64,000 nt of DNA, from NCBI GenBank assembly GCA_902782665.1, contig CACZOA010000023.1, forward strand, positions 21,543 through 85,542. Reading direction: 5' to 3'. Below, piece by piece: positions 6,507 through 29,853 of this stretch (position 1 is its first letter; each line of letters starts with the position of its first letter). A model generated the notes under the pieces. The model saw only the letters and a list, made by a program, of their open reading frames with translations. It was not told where the DNA came from and did not search any database. This DNA comes from an uncultured Bacteroidales bacterium. GTDB taxonomy: Bacteria > Bacteroidota > Bacteroidia > Bacteroidales > Paludibacteraceae. A program made the translations under genes and the position numbers.

Positions 6507-7613
6507 TTATTTTATTGCTTGATCTGGCACTTTCAACGGAGCTTTCACTGCCGACCATGCTGCAATCATTCCTGCTCCATTCTCCACGTTACAGTAGAGA
6601 ATATGTGGTGAAAGTGTACCATTGTAATCGTTGTCCTTTACCAATTGGTATGTGCGATAGTACATATACATCTCTTTGTTTATATGACGCAATTCAAAGT
6701 CGAGAGTGCTGAGGTCGATTCTGTTTACCCCTAAATAGCCTTTTGTGTATATGTTCATACTAAACCTGATCCTGGATGTTTGTCCATTGAACAGTTGGTC
6801 ATTGAAGATATTCTTTTCGTTCCATTCGTAATCATCAAATAAATTTCCTTCGGATTGGTTTTTATTCCAATTCATCACAGGATCATCTGTACGAAGAACT
6901 TCATGTGTAGATATTTCTTTGTATACCTTGGCCGAATCGATAACTTTATAAGTATAATTTTCGTATGGCTCTATCCATTCGTCTTCATACCAATGTCCGG
7001 GTACTGTATCTATTATAGTCTCATATTCGTACTCCATGACCATTGCGTAAAAGACTAATTGATAGTAATCTTCCGTATCTGGATCATCCTGCACGTTGAG
7101 TTCATAAGTCACTTTTGTATATGTCTCTGGCTCTAAATCGGTGACGTCTATTATTTCGTATGGTCCATAATAGCCGTTGTGAGTTTCTGTGATCTCTTCC
7201 ACGCTGATCACTCTGAAATCAGCTTTGGGCTTGTCCGGTATGGTGACTGTGGAGTATACGTCTTCCAAACCGTTGGCTTTGGCTTTTATTGTATAAGTCT
7301 CTCCTGCTTTGGCTATCAAACCTTTGGCTTCCATCATCGCACTGTCTGAAATGACTACATATTTGTAATCCGCATCTCCGTCGGTTGCTGTCACATTCGC
7401 GTCGGGAAGAAATACAATTGGAGTGATTTTGCCTTTGATTTGGTCGAAAATTATGTCGCTTCTCGACACCTGACACCATGGAGTCTCTCCATCGATAAAC
7501 CTACCGTTTACGACAATGATGTTTTTCACTCCCATGTCTTCATAATCCACCTCATCATAGCAAGAGGTAAATATGGAAATGAAAATATATAATAAAGCCG
7601 CTATCTTTTTCAT
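6507..7613 (-). CDS. DUF4249-type outer-membrane lipoprotein, partner of the TonB receptor
   Basis: 368 aa lipoprotein. The start was moved to the ATG at 7613 because it opens a lipoprotein signal peptide (MKKIAALLYIFISIFTSC, lipidated Cys about residue 18); an upstream in-frame ATG at 7703 would put 30 unrelated residues first and overlap the receptor. The mature N-terminus (KNIIVVNGRFIDGETPWCQV) has the form of DUF4249 proteins, which are encoded next to TonB-dependent receptors in Bacteroidota and are thought to assist substrate capture at the surface. It starts 11 bp after the receptor stop, in the same operon. The substrate is unknown. It ends before the bidirectional terminator at 6425-6460. 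Confidence 0.85.
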   Translation of the reverse strand: MKKIAALLYIFISIFTSCYDEVDYEDMGVKNIIVVNGRFIDGETPWCQVSRSDIIFDQIKGKITPIVFLPDANVTATDGDADYKYVVISDSAMMEAKGLIAKAGETYTIKAKANGLEDVYSTVTIPDKPKADFRVISVEEITETHNGYYGPYEIIDVTDLEPETYTKVTYELNVQDDPDTEDYYQLVFYAMVMEYEYETIIDTVPGHWYEDEWIEPYENYTYKVIDSAKVYKEISTHEVLRTDDPVMNWNKNQSEGNLFDDYEWNEKNIFNDQLFNGQTSRIRFSMNIYTKGYLGVNRIDLSTLDFELRHINKEMYMYYRTYQLVKDNDYNGTLSPHILYCNVENGAGMIAAWSAVKAPLKVPDQAIK

Positions 7614-7624
7614 CGTAATATATT

Positions 7625-9994
7625 TTAGAATTTTATAGAATATGAAACTGACGGAATTGTTGGGAAAATTGATGTTTTCATCAATTTTCTTGTTCCATCC
7701 CAATAATCTGTGTCTATATTATAAAAGAATGGATTATGTCTGTTGTAGACGTTGAAAATACTTACAGAAAGTTGACGCTTGATCTTGCTTCCTTCACTCT
7801 GACGGTGGAAGTTGACACCAAGGTCAAGTCTGTGATAATTCTCCATTCGGTAATTGTTTCGGCTCGCTGCATAATCGATTCTGTTATCACCACCATAATG
7901 ATTGATGTCATTTTGTTGCAAACTAGGGTCAACAAGGATCTGATGAGTCTGCATTGTGACAGGATATCCAGTTCCGAACACCCACGTCGCTCCAAGATCT
8001 ACTTTTTCAGAGAACTTATGATTGATCACGATGCTTATGTCGTGTGGTCTGTCGTAGTTGGATGGAAACCATTCGCCTTTGTTGATTTCGTTGAATTGAC
8101 GCTCTGCTTTCGACAGTGTATAGGCTATCCAACCGGTAGTTTTGCCTATCTCTTTTTTCAACATCAGCTCTATACCTTTCGCTCTTCCTTTTCCCATATC
8201 GACTTTCCCTTCCCAATTTGAGCTGGAAAACATAGATGCACCTTCTTTATACTCAATGACGTTGTCCATTGTCTTGTAGTATCCTTCTATTGAGAGGAGT
8301 AGATCATTAGGTAATCCGAATACGAATCCTATCGCTGTCTGGTGAGAATTCAGTGGCTTGATATTTTCTGTCACTGGCACCCAAAGGTCTGTTGGCAGTC
8401 CGATTGTTGAGTTGGACAATAGATGCAGATACTGTTGCATTTTGCTGTAAGCTGCCTTTATTGTGAATTTTTCTGTAGGATGGGCTGCGAAAGAAACACG
8501 TGGTTCTAAAGATGTGTATGTCTTATCGTTTACATTGAATAGCGACGCATGTAGACCCACATTCAGGTTTATTCTTTTTGTGATTTTGAACTCGTCCTCT
8601 ACGAAAAGGTTGCATTCCGTCGGTGTCGTTGTTTTCGAGTGGATTGTTGTATCAATTCCATAGTCATCGTAGGAATCGTCTTCATCATAGTATTTCTCGT
8701 ATACTCCTTGTTCTTCTGGTTTGAAGGTATGGAGTGTTACGGCTTCTCCAAATTTTATCTCATGTCTGTTGTTGGGTGTATACGTGAATGTGTTCTTTAA
8801 ACTCCAGTCTCTGATCATAGACTCATAGCTCATTTCATACTCATAATCTTTCTTCTTGGAGTTTTTTTCATACCCTACATTATTTATTTCCGTAAAGAAT
8901 TTGTATCTTGACAAAGCTACTGTCGTGTTCATAAACAGTTTGTTATGAATCAGAAAGTTCCATCTGATTGCTGATGAGATGTTTCCCCAACCCAATCCGA
9001 AATTCTGGTCACCGTACGCATCTTCATCTTCGAATCCAAGTTTGTCTCGTCCGGAGTATATGCTGAAATACAGACGGTGTCTGTCGTTGAATTTATGGTT
9101 CACTTTCGCATTCAAATCCCAGAAAAAGTAGCCGAATTGTTCATCTTTTTCCATGAATGGTTTGGCTAGGACATCAAAATATGTTCTTCTTGCTGATATG
9201 AAGAATGTTGTGCGTTCCTTTACAATCGGTCCTTCAAGACTGAATTTTGATGATAGCAGACCGATTTGGAAAGCTCCGTGAACCTCTTTGTCGTTTCCGT
9301 CTTTGGTGTGGATATCCAACACAGATGAAAGTCTTCCACCGAATCTTGCTGGGAAGCCTCCTTTATGCAGGTTGACGTTCTTGATCGCATCCGCATTGAA
9401 TACGGAGAAGAATCCAAACAAGTGTGTCACATTGTATAGTGGCACGTCGTCGAGCAGGATAAGGTTCTCGTCGGGTGATCCTCCACGCACATATAGTCCG
9501 GATGATCCTTCCATACCACTTTGCACACCAGGCAAAGTCTGCACCGTCTTCACAAGATCTGGCTCGCCAAGAATAGCGGGAAGCACATTAAGCAATTCCG
9601 GAGAGATGACCTCTTTGCTTATTACGGTCTCTTCCAGACGCTTGTCTCTTTTTATCTCTTTGGCAGTCACCACAAGCTCTTCCAACTGGTTGTCTGGTTC
9701 CAATTTTATTCTTACAGTAGTGTCTTTCTTTAGATTGAAGGATAATGTTTTTTCAGTATAGCTTACGTATGAAGCTATAATCTGGTTCTCACCTTCTGGC
9801 AATGTTAGGACAAAATAACCATACTGGTTGGTTTCGGTTCCTTTCTTTCCGTCTGGAGTCATAATATATGCTCCGATCAGAGTCTCTCCTGATGATGCGT
9901 CTGTCACGTATCCGGCGATTGTTTTGGTTTGAGCTGCGGTAGTGACAACTGTACCCATTGCTAATGAACACAGTAGGGATTTAACAAAATTCAT
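7625..9994 (-). CDS. TonB-dependent outer-membrane receptor with carboxypeptidase-like regulatory domain
   Basis: 789 aa. The ATG at 9994 was chosen because it opens a signal peptide (MNFVKSLLCSLAMGTVVTTAAQ); the longer frame from 10051 has no signal. Domains in order: a CarboxypepD_reg-like beta-sandwich (about 22-105, IAGYVTDASSGETLIGAYI), a plug domain (about 130-240, with GVQSGMEGSSGLYVRGGSPDE and LLDDVPLYNV), then a 22-strand-type barrel to the C-terminal aromatic strand ending in SIKF. Such receptors import large ligands across the outer membrane using TonB/ExbBD energy. No SusD gene is present; the DUF4249 lipoprotein takes the partner position. A -7 box lies at 10030-10037 on this strand. 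The ligand cannot be told. Confidence 0.95.
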   Translation of the reverse strand: MNFVKSLLCSLAMGTVVTTAAQTKTIAGYVTDASSGETLIGAYIMTPDGKKGTETNQYGYFVLTLPEGENQIIASYVSYTEKTLSFNLKKDTTVRIKLEPDNQLEELVVTAKEIKRDKRLEETVISKEVISPELLNVLPAILGEPDLVKTVQTLPGVQSGMEGSSGLYVRGGSPDENLILLDDVPLYNVTHLFGFFSVFNADAIKNVNLHKGGFPARFGGRLSSVLDIHTKDGNDKEVHGAFQIGLLSSKFSLEGPIVKERTTFFISARRTYFDVLAKPFMEKDEQFGYFFWDLNAKVNHKFNDRHRLYFSIYSGRDKLGFEDEDAYGDQNFGLGWGNISSAIRWNFLIHNKLFMNTTVALSRYKFFTEINNVGYEKNSKKKDYEYEMSYESMIRDWSLKNTFTYTPNNRHEIKFGEAVTLHTFKPEEQGVYEKYYDEDDSYDDYGIDTTIHSKTTTPTECNLFVEDEFKITKRINLNVGLHASLFNVNDKTYTSLEPRVSFAAHPTEKFTIKAAYSKMQQYLHLLSNSTIGLPTDLWVPVTENIKPLNSHQTAIGFVFGLPNDLLLSIEGYYKTMDNVIEYKEGASMFSSSNWEGKVDMGKGRAKGIELMLKKEIGKTTGWIAYTLSKAERQFNEINKGEWFPSNYDRPHDISIVINHKFSEKVDLGATWVFGTGYPVTMQTHQILVDPSLQQNDINHYGGDNRIDYAASRNNYRMENYHRLDLGVNFHRQSEGSKIKRQLSVSIFNVYNRHNPFFYNIDTDYWDGTRKLMKTSIFPTIPSVSYSIKF

Positions 9995-20909: not shown

Positions 20910-21920
20910 TTAAGGCACCTCTACTGCATTGATGATCTCGTTGATGATGTCATCAGTGTTCATGTTGTTTGCCTCTGCCTCGTAAGTCAAACCGATACGG
21001 TGGCGAAGAATGTCGTGGGCAACTGCTCTCACGTCTTCTGGCAAAACATATCCTCTGCGCTTTACGAATGCGTAAGCTCTTGATGCCTTTGCAAGTGAGA
21101 TTGATGCACGTGGAGAACCTCCGAATGCGATCATGTCCTTCAAATTGTTAAGTCCATATTCTTCTGGGAATCGAGTAGCAAACACAATCTCGGTGATATA
21201 TTTCTGGATCTTCTCATCCATATATACGTCATGCACAACTTTTCTTGCCTCGATGATATCCTCTGGCTTAAGAAGTGCAGTGACAGTCTTTGGCTCACGC
21301 TTTAGCTGTGCCTGGATGATACGCATTTCCTCTTCTCTCTTTGGATATGTGATGATAACCTTGAACATGAAACGGTCCATCTGCGCTTCTGGCAATGGGT
21401 ATGTACCTTCCTGCTCAACTGGGTTTTGTGTAGCCATAACCAAGAATGGAGATGGCAACTTGAATGTTGTCTCACCGATTGTCACCTGACGCTCCTGCAT
21501 TCCCTCAAGCAATGCACTCTGTACTTTAGCTGGAGCACGGTTGATCTCATCCGCCAATACGAAGTTTGCAAAGATAGGTCCTTTCTTGATTGTGAATTCC
21601 TCGTTCTTCTGGCTATAGATCTGTGTACCCAACACGTCGGCTGGCAACAAGTCTGGTGTGAACTGGATTCTGCTGTATTTAGCTGAAATTAATTGGGCTA
21701 GAGTAGTGATTGATGCTGTCTTAGCCAATCCTGGAACACCTTCAAGCAACACATGTCCGTCTGCCAAAAGGGCTATGATCAAAATTTCCTTTAGATGCTT
21801 CTGTCCTTCAATGATTGTGTCCATTCCAGAAAGAAGGTTGTCAACGAAAGCACTCTGTCTTTCAATTCTTTCATTCAAACGGCTGAAATCTGGATTACCG
21901 CTTCCTATTACTTCACTCAT
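20910..21920 (-). CDS. moxR: MoxR-family AAA+ ATPase
   Basis: 336 aa AAA+ chaperone-like ATPase leading the eight-gene Bat operon. Walker A GVPGLAKT (61-68), Walker B FVLADEINRAPAK with the following ALLEGMQERQVTIG, MATQNPVEQEGTYPLPEAQMDRF region of the MoxR family (seen as MATQNPVEQEG and PEAQMDRFMF), and SPRAS sensor 2. MoxR proteins remodel or insert cofactors into partner complexes together with VWA proteins. A well-spaced Bacteroidetes promoter lies 36-69 bp upstream of the ATG at 21920. Confidence 0.96.
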   Translation of the reverse strand: MSEVIGSGNPDFSRLNERIERQSAFVDNLLSGMDTIIEGQKHLKEILIIALLADGHVLLEGVPGLAKTASITTLAQLISAKYSRIQFTPDLLPADVLGTQIYSQKNEEFTIKKGPIFANFVLADEINRAPAKVQSALLEGMQERQVTIGETTFKLPSPFLVMATQNPVEQEGTYPLPEAQMDRFMFKVIITYPKREEEMRIIQAQLKREPKTVTALLKPEDIIEARKVVHDVYMDEKIQKYITEIVFATRFPEEYGLNNLKDMIAFGGSPRASISLAKASRAYAFVKRRGYVLPEDVRAVAHDILRHRIGLTYEAEANNMNTDDIINEIINAVEVP

Positions 21921-22086: not shown

Positions 22087-23739
22087 TTATTTTACGAATT
22101 CGTGCTGTATCTCTTTGGCTGTTAGGATACTATGCTCTGAATCTGGATTCACAAGTTTCGTGTTGTCTAGCATTGGCACTTTGATCTTCGTTCCGGCCTT
22201 GATGTGGTTTGGATTTTTGATCACATCTTTGTTGTAAAGATAAATGTAAACCCAAAAGTCTTTTGCACCGTAGTGTCGAAGAGATACGAGTGTCAGACGA
22301 CTATTATTACCTAACTTTTCTTCTATCGGATCTCCCTGGTCTGTGATGTCCATTTCTGGATGTTTTTTCTTCATATAGTTGATGAAGTCATCCTTGAAGT
22401 TTGTGTATTTCTGGACATTTTGTTTGACTGCAGGTTTTTCTTCCGTCTTCTCTGCTGTGTCTTGAGTTGTAGCTTCAGCAATCGAGTCAATCGCTTCTGC
22501 ATTCTCTTCTGTCTTTTCAGCAATGATCTGTTCCTCAAAGTCCTTGGTCTCCTCATATTCAGAAGAATCAACCATGGCTTCTGTCTTCGCAGGTTCGTTT
22601 CCTGTTAGTTTATAACGTATTTTGCTGACAATGTTAGGGTCAGACATCCAAGCTACTAAACCGACAACGAACAGAATACAAAGGAACAATATGATTGCGA
22701 TTCCTAGTTTCTTTCCGTGTGAGTTTTTGTCATTATTCTCATCATCATCTTCTTTTTCTTTTGGCAAATCATGACGTTTGAATGTAGACGCGTAAGTGAT
22801 TGTCTCTTCTGTTTTTGCATCAGATTTTTTATCATCATCTGCTTTAGAATCTTCCTTAGTCTCCTCCTCAGGCTTTTCTGCTTCAATCTTATCAGTAGAA
22901 GATGTATTGGAGTTTTCTGTTGTTGTCTCCTCTGTATGTGTATCTTCGTTGATTGTGACAGTTGCAGTTGCTTCTGTTGTTGACTCTTCTGTATTTTCCT
23001 CTTCGCTGATAGTAGACGATGAGTTGGAAGTTCCTATATTTTCATTTGTTGTAGAAGACACTGTTGTATTAACCTCTTCGTTGACGATAGAAGAAGTTGT
23101 TGTGTTTTCTGCCTCTGCAATATTTTCAACCTCAACACTCTGCTCTTCACTAATGATGTTAGGAATTTGCTGAGTTTCAGTGCTTTGACTTTCAGTGGTG
23201 TTTTCTGTAATTGGAGTCTCTACAGTTACCGTCTCCTCTGTTTTTTCATTTGTCTCTTGGTTGACAACCTCTGTATTTAGATTGCTTATTGTTGCGACAA
23301 CAGGTTCAACGATAGTGCTTTCAACTGTTTGTACAGGTTCCTCTGTTTCAGTCTTTGCATTATTTACTTCTATATCATCATCTTCTGGCTCTGGAGCGTC
23401 CACCTCTCCTTCTGGAGCAAGCACGTAGCTTGGTTCGAAGTGAGCATAAGGCTTGTTTAAGGTTTCCGCCAAAGAAGAATCTGGTGTGAAAGAAATCTTA
23501 TTGTGAGCTGGAATAATTGTGTTGGCTCCTGTATTTACATCTTTACTCTTTCTCGCATCAACTTTGACAACTTTGAATGTGCCAAGACCTTTGATCTTGA
23601 CATTTCCTTCTGTTTGGAGGCCTTCGCTTATTTGAGCAAAGAATAAACGTAGAAAGTCTTCCCAACCTTTTTTGTTGATCAGGCTTACGTTTGTGCTCAA
23701 TAGCTGGGATAGTTCAGAAATAGTGATTTTTTTATTCAT
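22087..23739 (-). CDS. HU-like DNA-binding domain fused to a transmembrane segment and LysM-like domain
   Basis: 550 aa with an unusual layout. Residues 1-95 are a HU/IHF-like DNA-binding fold (ITISELSQLLSTNVSLINKK, VKIKGLGTFKVVKVDARKS, NKISFTPDSSLAETLN). Residues 100-335 are a low-complexity acidic linker rich in Thr, Ser and Glu. Residues 345-365 are one membrane segment (LGIAIILFLCILFVVGLVAW), preceded by KK, which predicts N-inside. After another acidic linker, residues 475-525 resemble LysM (LTLVSLRHYGAKDFWVYIYL, NPNHIKAGTKIKVP). It would therefore bind DNA in the cytoplasm and peptidoglycan in the periplasm. The start overlaps the upstream 95-aa HU gene by 8 bp, suggesting coupled translation. 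The LysM call is by eye and lacks a clear GDT motif. Confidence 0.85.
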   Translation of the reverse strand: MNKKITISELSQLLSTNVSLINKKGWEDFLRLFFAQISEGLQTEGNVKIKGLGTFKVVKVDARKSKDVNTGANTIIPAHNKISFTPDSSLAETLNKPYAHFEPSYVLAPEGEVDAPEPEDDDIEVNNAKTETEEPVQTVESTIVEPVVATISNLNTEVVNQETNEKTEETVTVETPITENTTESQSTETQQIPNIISEEQSVEVENIAEAENTTTSSIVNEEVNTTVSSTTNENIGTSNSSSTISEEENTEESTTEATATVTINEDTHTEETTTENSNTSSTDKIEAEKPEEETKEDSKADDDKKSDAKTEETITYASTFKRHDLPKEKEDDDENNDKNSHGKKLGIAIILFLCILFVVGLVAWMSDPNIVSKIRYKLTGNEPAKTEAMVDSSEYEETKDFEEQIIAEKTEENAEAIDSIAEATTQDTAEKTEEKPAVKQNVQKYTNFKDDFINYMKKKHPEMDITDQGDPIEEKLGNNSRLTLVSLRHYGAKDFWVYIYLYNKDVIKNPNHIKAGTKIKVPMLDNTKLVNPDSEHSILTAKEIQHEFVK

Positions 23740-24019
23740 TGTAGTCCTTCTGTATTGAATCCTTCAAAATATCACTTGGCTTGAATCCGCAGACCAATTT
23801 TGGTGCTGTCATGATTCGCTGTTTAGTAGTGGGGTTGTAGGAAATTCTTCCATCTTTTTTGCGTAGGTCGAATGAGCCGAAACCAGAAATCATGATTGTG
23901 TCGTTGCTCTCCAATACTTTTGCCATAGTGGCAACAGTATCGTCAATCATACTTTCAATCTGTTGTGCCTTCATTCCGGTTTTTTCAGATAGAGCGGCTA
24001 CCAAATCTTTGTGTTTCAT
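23732..24019 (-). CDS. Small HU-family DNA-binding protein
   Basis: 95 aa, the normal HU size. MKHKDLVAALSEKTG, the dimer core IMISGFGSFDLRKKDGRISY and the arm region NPTTKQRIMTAPKLVCGFKPS match the HU/IHF family, with the usual RNP-like arm replaced by NPTT. Nucleoid-associated, bends or wraps DNA. It overlaps the following HU-LysM gene by 8 bp, so the two are probably made together and might form mixed dimers that tether DNA to the envelope (inference). A TATATTTG -7 box lies 35 bp upstream. Confidence 0.93.
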   Translation of the reverse strand: MKHKDLVAALSEKTGMKAQQIESMIDDTVATMAKVLESNDTIMISGFGSFDLRKKDGRISYNPTTKQRIMTAPKLVCGFKPSDILKDSIQKDYNE

Positions 24020-24053: not shown

Positions 24054-24061
24054 CAAATATA
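24054..24061 (-). promoter_or_regulatory. -7 box for the HU operon
   Basis: TATATTTG on the minus strand, an exact TAnnTTTG match, 35 bp before the ATG at 24019. No well-placed -33 TTTG. Confidence 0.5.
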
Positions 24062-24285: not shown

Positions 24286-24327
24286 CTTTTCTCTCTAACT
24301 TTTAATCTCTAACCTTTTCTCTCTTAT
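24286..24327. repeat. Heptad-phased repeat at the ftsK 3' end
   Basis: CTTTTCT-CTCTAAC-TTTTAAT-CTCTAAC-CTTTTCT-CTCTTAT: six 7-bp units in exact phase, with CTCTAAC and CTTTTCT each used twice in mirror order. The ftsK stop codon (24324-24326) lies in the last unit. Confidence 0.7.
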
Positions 24328-26906
24328 CTCGGATTATTGTTGTTTATATTCTGCAAAATCATTTCAAGAGTGTCAAGGTCGTTGATATATACTTCTCTTG
24401 GTTTGCTTCCTACTTGTGGGCCTACGATTCCAGCAACTTCCAACTGGTCCATCAATCGTCCAGAACGGTTGTAACCCAAACTGAATTTTCGTTGCAACAT
24501 TGATGTTGATCCTTGTCCGGAACCGACAATCAAACGTGCTGCCTCTTCAAAGAACGGATCTCTGTTGCGTAAGTCGATGCCTTTATCTTCTGCTGATTCA
24601 ACATTTGGATCCACATATTCTGGCAATTCATATGGCTCGAGATATCCTTCCTGTGCTTGGATAAAGTCGTTGATGGCCTCTACCTCTGGAGTGTCTACAA
24701 ATGCACATTGCACACGTTCAAGGTTTCCGTTAGACAGGATAAGCATGTCACCTCGTCCGATAAGTGTTTCTGCTCCTGTGCAGTCGAGGATGGTTTTTGA
24801 GTCGATGGCCTGTGCTGTCTTACATGCGAAACGTACAGGGAAGTTTGATTTGATCAAACCTGTGATGACGTTGACTGACGGACGTTGTGTCGCAAGTATG
24901 ACATGGATTCCAATCGCACGTGCTTTTTGTGCCAGTCGTGCCACAGGTGTCTCGATGTCTTTTCCTACTTGCATGATAAGGTCGGCAAACTCATCAATGA
25001 TCACTACGATATATGGCAAGAAGTGATGTCCGTTTTCTGGGTTCAGACGGCGTTCTTTATATTTATCGTTGTATTCTATAATGTTTCTGACCTTTGCTTT
25101 CTTCAACAGTTCGTAGCGGTTTTCCATCTCTACACAAAGACTGTTCATTGCGGCTACCACCTTGGTTACGTCGGTGATGATCGCTTCGTCTTCTCCTGGC
25201 ATTTTTGCAAGATAGTGCTTTAGCAGTGGAGCGTACATTGAAAACTCTACTGTCTTTGGATCGACTAGCACGAGCTTTAGTTCCGACGGGTGTTTCTTAT
25301 ACAATAGTGACATCAGCACTGCGTTCAACGCTACAGACTTTCCTTGTCCTGTGGCTCCGGCACAGATGACATGCGGACATTTCGCAAGGTCGATCATGTA
25401 GTTGTTGTTGGTGATGGTTTTTCCAAGGATGATTGGCAACTCCATCGTGTTGGTCTGGTACTTTTTGCTTGCCACCATATCATGCATCGGCACGATAAGT
25501 TTCTTCTGGTTGGGCACTTCTATACCTATAGTTCCTTTGCCTGGGATAGGGGCGATGATTCGCACACCTTCGGCTTTAAGGCTCATAGCGATATCCTTGT
25601 TCAGACTCTGCACTTTGGAAATACGGATTCCTGGAGCCAACGTGATTTCATATAGTGTGACTGTAGGTCCAAGTTGGGCTTCGATGCTTGTCACCTGTAC
25701 TCCGTATGTTTCGAGTGCTGAAATGATTCGTTGCTGATTGTCTTTGAGCTCCTCCTCGTTTGCTTCAATCTTATTGTTAGGATATTCCTTCAAAAGTTCA
25801 ATTGGAGGGAACTGGTAGTGAGGTAAATCCTCTCTTGGATTTATTGGCTCAAGCTGTACGGAATTTTCTTCTTCAAATACCGAAACTGGCATCTCTTGTT
25901 CTGCAGGAGTAAGAGTTTGCTCGTTTGCTGACGCTGCGTCTTTAACTGCATTTGGTTCGTGGTCGAATGGAAGATCATCGTCGTCGTCATTTATTTTGAC
26001 TTTGAATCCTCCATCTATATTCTCCGCTGGCTTCTCTACTGTTTTTTCAGTTGGCTCTTCTTTAACCTCAGTCTCGACTACGGTTTTTTCTTCTTGTTTT
26101 TCTTCTTTTATGTCGTTATTATTCTCTTCAATTTCTTCTTCATCCTCTTCTACAGTCGATTTAGTATCAGGCGTAGTTGTTTCCTCGTTCGAAGATGTGG
26201 TAGTCGACTCTCTGTTTTGCTCATTCGCAGTGTTGTTGTCGATCTTTTCCTCTCCCTCTGTAGAAGACTCAATTTCTTTTTTTGCAAAGTAGTTTTTGAC
26301 TTTTTCTACGACGTTAGGATACATAAGAATCATGAATATCATAAGTGTAGTGAGAAGCACGAGTGAGGTTCCGAACTCTCCAATATATGTGTTCAGTGTA
26401 GTGGCTGTGTCCTGTCCGTGAAGTCCACCCCAATATATTGAACTGTTGTCTGAGAATGGAGTGCAGATAAGTCCGAGCAAAAGAGATATCCATAGCATCC
26501 AAAACAGACAATTGCCAATTATTCGACCGATTTGCAGTTTGAAAGATGTCAATATCTTCATTCCGATACACCAAAGAATTATGATGATGCAGAACGATGA
26601 AACTCCGAATGTTTTGTTGACCATGAAGTCGGCGATTACAGCACCGGAAAAACCAGATGCGTTAAGTGCACCGTCTTCCGCAATTTGTGTAGGAGATACT
26701 CCTGTCTCGATCAGACTTGCATCGGTAGAACTTGTGAAAAAGAAATTGATATAAGCCACTGTTACGTATAGGCATACCACTAGCAGTAAAATACCAACAC
26801 AAATCTTTGTGTTGCTATTGGTCACACTGTTCTTGATGCGTGTCTTTAGTTTGGAGAAGAAGTTTTCTTTCTTTTCTCCTTCTACAGGTTCATTCTTGCT
26901 CGTCAT
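24324..26906 (-). CDS. ftsK: FtsK/SpoIIIE DNA translocase
   Basis: 860 aa septal DNA pump that segregates chromosome ends during division. Four N-terminal membrane segments (about 35-55, 100-120, 130-150, 180-196), a long acidic Glu/Thr-rich linker (about 205-360), then the motor: Walker A GATGQGKS (517-524), Walker B VVIIDEFADLI, ILATQRPSVNVITGLIKSNFP (seen as ATQRPSVNVITG), and the C-terminal winged-helix gamma domain (SMLQRKFSLGYNRSGRLMDQLE) that reads orientation sequences on DNA. A TAATTTTG -7 box lies at 26936-26943 on this strand. Its neighbours are the HU genes, so chromosome-organisation genes are grouped here. Confidence 0.97.
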   Translation of the reverse strand: MTSKNEPVEGEKKENFFSKLKTRIKNSVTNSNTKICVGILLLVVCLYVTVAYINFFFTSSTDASLIETGVSPTQIAEDGALNASGFSGAVIADFMVNKTFGVSSFCIIIILWCIGMKILTSFKLQIGRIIGNCLFWMLWISLLLGLICTPFSDNSSIYWGGLHGQDTATTLNTYIGEFGTSLVLLTTLMIFMILMYPNVVEKVKNYFAKKEIESSTEGEEKIDNNTANEQNRESTTTSSNEETTTPDTKSTVEEDEEEIEENNNDIKEEKQEEKTVVETEVKEEPTEKTVEKPAENIDGGFKVKINDDDDDLPFDHEPNAVKDAASANEQTLTPAEQEMPVSVFEEENSVQLEPINPREDLPHYQFPPIELLKEYPNNKIEANEEELKDNQQRIISALETYGVQVTSIEAQLGPTVTLYEITLAPGIRISKVQSLNKDIAMSLKAEGVRIIAPIPGKGTIGIEVPNQKKLIVPMHDMVASKKYQTNTMELPIILGKTITNNNYMIDLAKCPHVICAGATGQGKSVALNAVLMSLLYKKHPSELKLVLVDPKTVEFSMYAPLLKHYLAKMPGEDEAIITDVTKVVAAMNSLCVEMENRYELLKKAKVRNIIEYNDKYKERRLNPENGHHFLPYIVVIIDEFADLIMQVGKDIETPVARLAQKARAIGIHVILATQRPSVNVITGLIKSNFPVRFACKTAQAIDSKTILDCTGAETLIGRGDMLILSNGNLERVQCAFVDTPEVEAINDFIQAQEGYLEPYELPEYVDPNVESAEDKGIDLRNRDPFFEEAARLIVGSGQGSTSMLQRKFSLGYNRSGRLMDQLEVAGIVGPQVGSKPREVYINDLDTLEMILQNINNNNPR

Positions 26907-27071: not shown

Positions 27072-27698
27072 TTAATCCTTGAAATTTGGAGATTTAATTT
27101 CTGGGTTTTTGAATGTTATATTCAGATGTTGTTTGAATCCTGCGTTTACAAGAATAGGTTGGAGCACATTTTCGGTGTTGCTTTTGGCTATGTTGTTGAT
27201 TTCTATGTATGAAGTGCTTTTTTTGACATCTTCAATGCCATGCTTGATGACATACTCACGCTCTTGCTCTGTAAAGTTTGATCTGAACCAAGATACATAC
27301 TCACGTGATTTGTCGTGGTCGATTTTTGTACTTGTGATTTCAAGTGTAGGAGAGGGGAGGGTTATGTCTATTGTAGAGTCGTTTACTGATATGTCATTGG
27401 TAGTGACGAAGTTAAGGTCTACAATGATTTTCATTTTGACCTCAATTGGGACCATCAGTCTTTTTTCTCCTGGCAGAGGTGTGCTGTATCCAAATATTTT
27501 TAGTTGGCTGTCGTCGTCAAACGATACGGTCTTGAGCACTGTATATTCAGCAACCTCCAATTTAGAACAATGGTGTACTCTTTCCCAGAGTACACCAATT
27601 GTATCAATTTTATTTGTCTGACTGTCGACGCTTGGATTTTCATTGCCACTGCATGCGAATAGCAGAAGTGCGAGCAACGTCGACAGAAATAATCTCAT
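27072..27698 (-). CDS. DUF4230-type lipoprotein
   Basis: 208 aa. Lipoprotein signal peptide with lipobox LFAC (Cys16). The mature part fits the DUF4230 family: CSKLEVAEYTVLKTVSFDD near the start, VEVKMKIIVDLNF-like strands (seen as VPIEVKMKIIVDLNF), and ITLPSPTLEITSTKIDHD. The family has no known function. It starts 4 bp after the dapA stop on the same strand, so the two are cotranscribed, though no functional link is evident. Confidence 0.8.
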   Translation of the reverse strand: MRLFLSTLLALLLFACSGNENPSVDSQTNKIDTIGVLWERVHHCSKLEVAEYTVLKTVSFDDDSQLKIFGYSTPLPGEKRLMVPIEVKMKIIVDLNFVTTNDISVNDSTIDITLPSPTLEITSTKIDHDKSREYVSWFRSNFTEQEREYVIKHGIEDVKKSTSYIEINNIAKSNTENVLQPILVNAGFKQHLNITFKNPEIKSPNFKD

Positions 27699-28662: not shown

Positions 28663-29193
28663 TTAATAATAGAAATATCCGAAGATTCCGCTCATTATAA
28701 TCAGATATATCGGATTGACCTTGAAAAAGAATGTGGCTATGAAAACTATCGCGCATATTATCACGCTTTCAAAACCGATGAAATTCTCTTTGTTCATCAT
28801 GAGCACTCCGGCTGAAAAAATCAATCCGACGACGATTGGTTTGAGCGACGCCAGCAATGCCTTGACATAGTGGTTCTCTTCGTTCTTGAATAGCCAGGTG
28901 ATCACCGCTACCATCAGGAGCACAGTAGGCAAACATAATGCGAATGTTGTGAATATGGCTCCAATAACGCCTCCTTGATTATAGCCGATATATGTGGCAC
29001 AGTTTATGGAGATTGGTCCGGGAGTCATTTGGGATAATGCGAGAATGTCGGCAAACTCGCTGTTGGTCATCCATCCGTTTTTGTCCACGACGTCGAATTG
29101 GATCATTGAGATCATTCCGTATCCACCACCAAAACCGAACAATCCGATTTTGAAGAAACTCCAGAATAGTTTCAAATACATTATTATATCCAT
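28663..29193 (-). CDS. Chromate-type transporter subunit (short ChrA half)
   Basis: 176 aa membrane protein, one half of a two-gene CHR-family transporter. The N-terminus has the family signature FKIGLFGFGGGYGMISMIQ, followed by QMTPGPISINCATYIGY and about five hydrophobic segments. CHR proteins were found as chromate exporters, but short paired forms are common in gut bacteria and their substrate is usually untested. It lies 18 bp after the partner gene. Confidence 0.9.
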   Translation of the reverse strand: MDIIMYLKLFWSFFKIGLFGFGGGYGMISMIQFDVVDKNGWMTNSEFADILALSQMTPGPISINCATYIGYNQGGVIGAIFTTFALCLPTVLLMVAVITWLFKNEENHYVKALLASLKPIVVGLIFSAGVLMMNKENFIGFESVIICAIVFIATFFFKVNPIYLIIMSGIFGYFYY

Positions 29194-29211
29194 TTCTTCA
29201 GTTTCTTGGTT

Positions 29212-29853
29212 TTAGTCGTTTTCTTTTTTTGTTGAAATGAACTCCACGTTTTTCTCATCATCTTCTTCTGAATCATCATGATTGTCTGTGTCGTTGTCGG
29301 ATTTTTTCTTGTCTATATCCTTGATTTTCCGATATTCCCAGCATAATGTGCAGATGATCGCTGCCATTATGATGTAGACGGGAGATATTTTCAGAAATAC
29401 TACCACTGCCGCCACCAAAATAGGGATTGGCAGGAATTTCCATGATAATTCTGATTTGATGAACATTTTGACTGACGGAGCTAGAATAAGAGCCACTACG
29501 CATGGACGTATGCCGTCAAATATTTTCATCACAGTTTCGTTTTCTCTAAACTCTTGGAAACATGTGCTTATGGCTCCTATGATCAACAATGATGGAAGAA
29601 CAGCTCCAAGGAATGAAACTGCAGCTCCACATTTTCCAGCGATCCTGTAGCCTACATAAAGGGCTGTGTTGACGGCAAACACTCCGGGCAATGACTGCAC
29701 AATGGTGATCATTTTCCAGAACTCTTTTTCGTCAATCCATTTTTTTTGTCTGACAACAGCCTGCTCGACGAGGGCTAGCATTGCGTATCCGCCACCGAGA
29801 GTGAAACTTCCAATTTTCAGGAATGTGGTGAGTAGGTCGAAATATAGTCTCAA
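29212..29853 (-). CDS. Chromate-type transporter subunit with acidic C-terminal tail
   Basis: 213 aa, the second half of the CHR pair. Signature LKIGSFTLGGGYAMLALVE and VQSLPGVFAVNTALYVGYR, five to six hydrophobic segments to about residue 170, then a hydrophilic tail of about 40 residues very rich in Asp, Glu and Lys (DNDTDNHDDSEEDDEK). The tail is not part of the usual short CHR protein and might bind cations or a partner. Cotranscribed with the thioesterase gene 20 bp upstream. Confidence 0.88.
   Translation of the reverse strand: MRLYFDLLTTFLKIGSFTLGGGYAMLALVEQAVVRQKKWIDEKEFWKMITIVQSLPGVFAVNTALYVGYRIAGKCGAAVSFLGAVLPSLLIIGAISTCFQEFRENETVMKIFDGIRPCVVALILAPSVKMFIKSELSWKFLPIPILVAAVVVFLKISPVYIIMAAIICTLCWEYRKIKDIDKKKSDNDTDNHDDSEEDDEKNVEFISTKKEND

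Follow-up and report, generated by a model that had tools for sequence, protein, structure and literature searches.

A small HU gene coupled to a gene for a membrane-spanning HU-LysM protein in Bacteroidales: a candidate tether between DNA and peptidoglycan

In a window of 64,000 nucleotides (the whole stretch of DNA that was analysed) from an uncultured bacterium of the Paludibacteraceae, order Bacteroidales, a gene for an ordinary small HU protein leads directly into a gene for a 550-residue protein in which an HU domain, a linker, a single transmembrane helix and a LysM domain follow one another, and this HU + transmembrane + LysM layout is real. The domains, their order, the single helix, the recurrent pairing of the two genes and the fusions between them in some relatives all come directly out of the computations. 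On balance, we favour the view that the small HU and the membrane HU-LysM protein make up an HU/IHF-type heterodimer that would tether DNA through the membrane to peptidoglycan. The features on which the argument turns are these:

20910 to 21920, minus strand: MoxR AAA+ ATPase (AAA_3, 8.8e-66), first gene of a downstream moxR-DUF58-bat block
22087 to 23739, minus strand: membrane HU-LysM protein, 550 residues (HU, linker, transmembrane helix, LysM)
22093 to 22137, minus strand: helix at the C-terminus, following LysM, residues 535-549 (AlphaFold)
22177 to 22326, minus strand: LysM domain, residues 472-521, beta-alpha-alpha-beta, Kbp/YgaU-like (profile against PDB, model, Foldseek)
22327 to 22641, minus strand: predicted periplasmic spacer, residues 367-471 (AlphaFold model)
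22642 to 22716, minus strand: single transmembrane helix, residues 342-366 (hydropathy, AlphaFold helix, one such helix in 51 of 51 relatives)
22717 to 23445, minus strand: acidic disordered linker, residues 99-341, predicted to be cytoplasmic (pLDDT and charge)
23446 to 23739, minus strand: HU/IHF domain, residues 1-98 (PF00216, AlphaFold, Foldseek), with arm DVNTG, which lacks the usual NP proline
23732 to 23739, minus strand: overlap of the reading frames of the small HU and membrane HU genes, 8 bp
23732 to 24019, minus strand: small HU subunit, 95 residues (PF00216, 1.4e-22), with the proline-containing arm motif YNPTT
24054 to 24061, minus strand: TATATTTG, candidate -7 promoter element, 34 bases from the ATG of the small HU gene
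24324 to 26906, minus strand: FtsK (FtsK domains in Pfam), a lineage-specific neighbour outside the unit

The start of the longer gene falls within the 3' end of the 95-residue HU gene, both being on the minus strand, and the open reading frames agree with the 8-bp overlap reported in an earlier reading made from the sequence alone (the sequence-only reading). Upstream of the small HU gene, TATATTTG agrees with TAnnTTTG, which we take to be the Bacteroidota -7 promoter consensus; the agreement is suggestive only, as it comes without a chance estimate. The window's nearest named relatives are titled Bacteroidales, Paludibacteraceae and Candidatus Scybalocola.

Both window proteins score well over the PF00216 cut-off of 22.4 bits (61.8 and 80.1 bits), the match in the long protein covering residues 6-95 (7.7e-17). 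The sequence-only reading had placed an HU fold at residues 1-95 of the latter and had named structure prediction as a check, and it is borne out both by this match and by the AlphaFold model, in which residues 1-98 take up an HU fold with a helical base and a beta arm (means of pLDDT over 10-residue blocks, 78-91). The best Foldseek match of this domain of the membrane protein was chain C of 9f0y (5.1e-7), an entry that contains IHF alpha. The model of the whole 550-residue protein was made from an 18-row alignment and has an overall pTM of 0.28, so the relative placement of its domains is meaningless.

The LysM call is too weak if made from the window protein by itself, which falls below the gathering score for Pfam LysM (PF01476: E = 0.16, 12.4 vs 20.9 bits) and gives a weak fragment match to TIGR02899 (0.59), but it is clear from a 15-member profile of the C-terminal region taken together with the predicted structure. 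Searched against PDB, the profile found Kbp-based chains at 3e-9 and Kbp itself at 6e-9; eight of its 15 members match Pfam LysM weakly in their own right (best 0.0025), and a relative with the same layout as the window protein (L126) passes the Pfam cut-off (22.6 vs 20.9 bits). The AlphaFold model has, with pLDDT of 89-95, strands at residues 472-475 and 518-521 enclosing helices at 482-490 and 493-502, which is the beta-alpha-alpha-beta order of LysM, and a model of the isolated C-terminal domain (mean pLDDT 90.7) superposes on Kbp at 1.2 A over 53 columns; the best Foldseek E value for this domain was 3.1e-3, to a Kbp-based sensor, with none better than 0.001. The LysM-like fold that had been read from the sequence at about residues 475-525 is therefore upheld by profile and structure prediction alike. 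Since the nearest solved LysM domain is that of Kbp, solved with bound potassium, the fold does not of itself imply wall binding.

The C-terminal profile was found at 1e-6 in 107 of the 120 genomes of the window's family (75 of the 79 of good quality), so the LysM region of the window protein is not a product of chance, and at E <= 0.001 in 86 of 295 genomes of the order; these counts take in any protein with the domain, including short LysM and OmpA-LysM proteins. The layout itself was surveyed in 60 Bacteroidales loci (L065-L124, from 57 genomes), which were chosen non-randomly from the matches, usually with one or a few taken from each genus or family, and were scanned with HU and LysM profiles built from relatives that include some of these loci. 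They contain 61 LysM frames, 51 of which also encode an HU domain, and each of the 51 has exactly one transmembrane helix (predicted by our own script, from Kyte-Doolittle hydropathy only), sited between HU and LysM; this identical layout rules out a chance open reading frame or an artificial fusion. A small HU frame lies directly upstream in 48 of the 51 loci, ending anywhere from 169 bases inside to 34 bases before the open frame of the membrane HU (distances measured from open-frame ends, not start codons), and the coupling to a small HU gene, for which the sequence-only reading had proposed such a survey, is thus a feature of Bacteroidales well beyond the window. The three loci with no separate small HU are L111, L118 and L099, the last of these being a fusion. 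In L118, the HU-TM-LysM gene (7539-8953, plus strand) is directly followed by a second, small gene for a TM-LysM protein. A set of named Bacteroidales loci (L142-L177), which overlap partly with other loci and were kept out of the counts, brings in two cultured relatives, Dysgonomonas hofstadii DSM 104969 (L176) and Muribaculum caecicola (L174).

Within the class, the C-terminal profile was found in 27 of 295 genomes, 21 of them outside the order, and none of the 14 of these 21 that were read (L128-L141) has an HU domain in the LysM frame. Across the phylum, it was found at 1e-6 in 77 of 247 genomes; among the phylum-level loci outside the order, HU was present in the LysM frame in L256, and in none of the nine others (L255, L257-L264). 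Thirteen of 14 loci chosen from another class have the pair of small HU and membrane HU-LysM protein, with one transmembrane helix each, and one of these positives is the genome of L256; as the loci were picked by their long open frame, mostly from one family, and all 13 positives belong to that family (f199), the figure is no estimate of frequency. LysM domains outside the phylum were rejected as a sign of wider spread, LysM and HU sharing a frame in none of 31 loci titled as outside Bacteroidota or unnamed (L178-L186, L188-L209).

What surrounds the pair is variable. On the same strand, the upstream neighbours in the 51 loci include RimO (27), FtsY (21) and L28 (14), and the downstream ones MoxR (25), DUF58 (24), a 342-residue protein of the bat block with no Pfam match (26) and VWA proteins (27), MoxR being present anywhere in the stretch in 28; some of these loci end early at contig ends, and each neighbour name rests on one example. 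The sequence-only reading had linked the pair to ftsK, and here it did not survive the survey that it had called for: ftsK is near in just two of the 51 loci (L065 and L092), and an FtsK-linked segregation module was rejected for this reason. Among the 36 named Bacteroidales loci, which span only about 3 kb upstream and are partly shorter, it turned up just in L143-L147, which are closely related to the window. In the 13 loci of the other class, stretches of 5.5-6 kb contained none of the other genes that neighbour the pair in the window. With neighbours that vary, and none shared with the other class, the constant unit is the HU pair itself. Upstream in the window, a DUF4230 protein (27072-27698, minus strand) is encoded between ftsK and dapA, and two adjacent chromate-transporter genes (28663-29853, minus strand) lie near dapA, upstream of ftsK.

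The two HU domains are of different types, and in three lineages (L099, L104 and L127) a single chain joins a small-type HU to a membrane-type HU behind it, as a fusion. L099 has two PF00216 stretches, the first scoring 44.5 bits with a model of small HUs and 14.7 with one of membrane HUs, the second 10.6 and 48.1, respectively; the corresponding scores in the very divergent L104, the fused domains of which are below the PF00216 cut-off, are 21.2 and 9.5 for the first domain and 6.3 and 12.8 for the second. L127 also has two PF00216 stretches, small-type and then membrane-type, and its family has the two as separate genes in the two other genomes read (G177 and G282). L122, considered as a further fusion, was ambiguous. 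A tree of 99 HU domains over 100 columns (with good support for 21 of its 96 branches, and with the fused domains on long ones; L097_m and L103_m, which have missing columns, and L127 were left out) is split at 100/96 into a membrane side, holding the membrane HUs with the second domains of L099 and L104, and a small side, holding the small HUs with the first domains of L099 and L104 and one canonical HU. The fusion of otherwise separate neighbours is classic evidence for a physical complex, and from its occurrence in these three lineages, which include a very divergent one, we argue that small HU and membrane HU would dimerize with each other.

The linker had been read as acidic, and so it is: its net charge in the window protein is -50 over residues 96-343, and D+E exceeds K+R in 50 of the 51 relatives, whose linkers range from 41 to 444 residues (median 141). 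In the window protein it is predicted to be mostly disordered (residues 120-340 largely have pLDDT below 50), and a search of it for tandem repeats found none. Two relatives have genes interrupted in the linker region, by an in-frame stop within a repeated stretch in L074 (7575-8903, minus strand) and by a frame change in L114 (7893-8947, minus strand); assembly error, decay or switching may be responsible. The one transmembrane helix of the sequence-only reading stands, there being one hydrophobic stretch and an AlphaFold helix in this place, whereas its limits have moved from residues 345-365 to nearer 342-366. In the spacer that follows, the model has helices at 370-379, 395-418 and 450-459 and low confidence at 381-396 and 413-443.

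Which end of the protein is inside? As had been predicted for the window protein, the likely topology for the family, judging from charges in the sequence, has the HU domain inside and LysM outside: among the 51 relatives, the HU side has more K+R close to the helix than the LysM side in 36, as much in six and less in nine. The window protein itself is neutral in this respect (3 vs 3), so it is the family-wide bias that makes the N-inside topology likely. A periplasmic position for LysM is supported, short of proof, by other proteins with the same variant of the domain, namely OmpA-domain proteins identified by Pfam (L119, L121 and L246), further OmpA-type proteins identified by eye (L248, L251, L252 and L254), and small proteins with signal-peptide-like starts (L249 and L250, by eye), together with a Wzc-like protein. 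The last of these (L247, 1-2187, plus strand) has an AAA_31/Wzc-like ATPase domain followed by a transmembrane stretch and a window-type LysM (AAA_31 by Pfam, the rest by eye), and is apparently a case of another cytoplasmic domain leashed to the wall side by a LysM foot of this kind. The OmpA-type proteins just listed thus carry two putative wall-binding domains each.

How might such a pair work? We suggest that each of the two genes would supply a subunit of a single HU/IHF-type heterodimer, with a proline-tipped, DNA-bending arm on the small HU and the second half of the DNA clamp provided by the membrane HU domain. From the clamp, a long, acidic and flexible leash would run to the inner-membrane helix and, beyond it, a periplasmic spacer would lead to a LysM domain holding peptidoglycan. 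In this way the complex would attach chromosomal DNA both to the inner membrane and to the wall, acting as a passive tether with a length that can adjust; the cell might use it to position or segregate its nucleoid. Of this scheme, we infer that the two HUs form a heterodimer, that they bind DNA, that the N-terminus is inside and that LysM binds the wall, as well as the role in the cell. Doubt attaches to the tether because the membrane HU lacks the proline and is near-neutral on average, while the LysM domain is Kbp-like; because the positive-inside rule is neutral for the window protein and points the other way in nine of 51 relatives; and because L111 and L118 have no separate small HU, L104 is very divergent and L122 ambiguous.

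The arm-tip proline of HU/IHF proteins intercalates into DNA. It is kept in 46 of 48 Bacteroidales small HUs, whereas the 48 membrane HUs have V or I at this position in 42 cases, P in three and E in one, with the position missing in two. The mean net charge over the 48 pairs is +5.2 for the small HU and +0.2 for the membrane HU domain, means that do not describe the window pair, in which the order is reversed (+4 for residues 1-95 of the membrane protein, +2 for the small HU). With the proline absent from most of them, Bacteroidales membrane HUs could, to judge from their sequences, have a weak affinity for DNA or now serve to bind proteins. In the latter case the membrane HU domain, having ceased to bind DNA, would dock instead with a protein located at the envelope or at the site of division, and the HU dimer would be an adaptor, as is said to have been proposed for eukaryotic CCDC81. 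We think this improbable, however, since R63, K64, S65 and G71 of the membrane HU are invariant in 18 aligned sequences (the window's included), as would be expected of a retained DNA-contact surface, and since the partner small HU almost always keeps its proline. Moreover, in the family from another class the NP motif is present in 13 of 13 membrane HUs and (by a simple pattern search) in 11 of 13 small HUs, so that the loss of proline from the membrane HUs of Bacteroidales looks derived.

The pair might instead act in regulation. CadC and ToxR are membrane-bound regulators, and a protein of their style would share the succession of DNA-binding domain, transmembrane helix and periplasmic domain seen here; LysM would sense the wall and the HU dimer would alter DNA architecture at specific promoters, such as that of the adjacent moxR-bat genes, which come next on the same strand in roughly half of the loci (MoxR in 25 of 51, DUF58 in 24 of 51). 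This is, in our opinion, unlikely: roughly every second locus lacks MoxR (some of these loci end early downstream), none of the 13 other-class loci has it within 5.5-6 kb, and a long, variable, acidic leash fits a tether better than it fits the transmission of a signal. HU/IHF dimers are, in addition, architectural as a rule rather than promoter-specific. It is even possible to imagine the LysM-like domain as an ion or osmotic sensor, coupling osmotic state to chromosome compaction, as its best matches in both sequence and structure are Kbp and Kbp-based sensors and Kbp was solved with potassium. We regard this as very unlikely indeed, because the partner of LysM in Kbp is a BON domain, which was not found in the window protein (Pfam, E up to 1), and because this variant of LysM adjoins OmpA domains and follows signal-peptide-like starts in other proteins.

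To our knowledge, the question of how Bacteroidota hold and position their chromosome relative to the envelope is largely open. An HU pair that is present in numerous Bacteroidales families, as well as in one that belongs to another class, offers a directly testable candidate, with cultured relatives to hand. More tentatively, it may be that an obligate HU heterodimer, continuous with a transmembrane helix and a peptidoglycan-binding domain, provides Bacteroidota with a conserved line from chromosome to wall, with a second tether, HU-TM-SPOR, running parallel to it in the same cell. That a single genome has two distinct HU-TM-wall-domain proteins would suggest that DNA is quite generally anchored to the wall in this phylum. 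By analogy, the HU-LysM tether might be seen as a bacterial counterpart, in logic and not in homology, of the eukaryotic complexes by which the nucleus is joined to the cytoskeleton.

Parts of the pair have parallels in known systems. OmpA-type outer-membrane proteins share the C-terminal LysM variant, but no HU domain was found in them, and they combine LysM with a barrel or PD40 repeats and an OmpA domain. Kbp (YgaU) shares the LysM sequence and fold, and the LysM region of L127 matches the Kbp/YgaU-type NCBIfam model PRK11198, below its cut-off; Kbp consists of LysM and BON domains, and is without HU or a transmembrane helix. IHF, like the window pair, has two HU-fold subunits of different type (alpha and beta), and is among the best matches of the HU domain. 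It is, however, soluble, with neither a transmembrane helix nor LysM, and an identification of the window HUs as IHF was rejected, their scores of 36.5 and 68.3 bits being below the NCBIfam IHF alpha equivalog cut-off of 111.

The HU-CCDC81_bac-SPOR clade of Bacteroidota has reportedly been treated by Burroughs and colleagues, who are said to argue for a role in chromosome partitioning. These HU-CCDC81_bac (PF18174/PF18175)-TM-SPOR proteins resemble the window pair in having two HU domains, a linker, a transmembrane helix and a C-terminus of a wall-binding family. They differ from it in ending in SPOR, to which the LysM-ending window protein has no Pfam match, and in having both HU domains in one chain (in 20 chosen loci) rather than in two genes. 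Unlike theirs, the HU domains of the window match PF00216 and do not reach the cut-offs of PF18174 and PF18175, so their assignment to CCDC81_bac was rejected (the long protein scores 12.4 with PF18175 against a cut-off of 35; the small HU scores 25 against the same cut-off, and 12.2 with PF18174 against 26). Another contig of the window's genome encodes a tandem HU-CCDC81_bac protein (L031, 1324-2184, plus strand; PF18174, 2.9e-19; PF18175, 2.8e-10), with one hydrophobic stretch and an end that is SPOR-like by eye, SPOR not being reported by Pfam. All of 20 further copies, inspected by eye, have tandem HU domains, a transmembrane helix and a SPOR-like C-terminus, two of them having an additional hydrophobic stretch ahead of the probable start; a Pfam scan of two copies found both HU domains in one chain in each, and SPOR above cut-off in L240 and below it in L226. 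PF18175 was above cut-off in 115 of 149 Bacteroidales genomes and reached E <= 0.001 in 142 of them, the latter count including weak matches to ordinary HUs; six of 14 control genomes gave a match, one of them above cut-off.

The title of Burroughs et al. 2017 (Cell Cycle 16:1093), a paper that reportedly deals with this clade, names chromosome partitioning. For the HU-TM-LysM arrangement, a limited literature search, mostly without subscription papers, found no function. The sequence-only reading had known of no described function either, which still holds for the LysM version as far as that search goes, and not for the layout more broadly, since HU, transmembrane helix and wall domain have a precedent in the CCDC81-SPOR clade. 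Judged by sequence, then, the HU-TM-wall-domain layout would be known already from the CCDC81-SPOR proteins, and what appears to be new is a LysM version of it, split over two genes.
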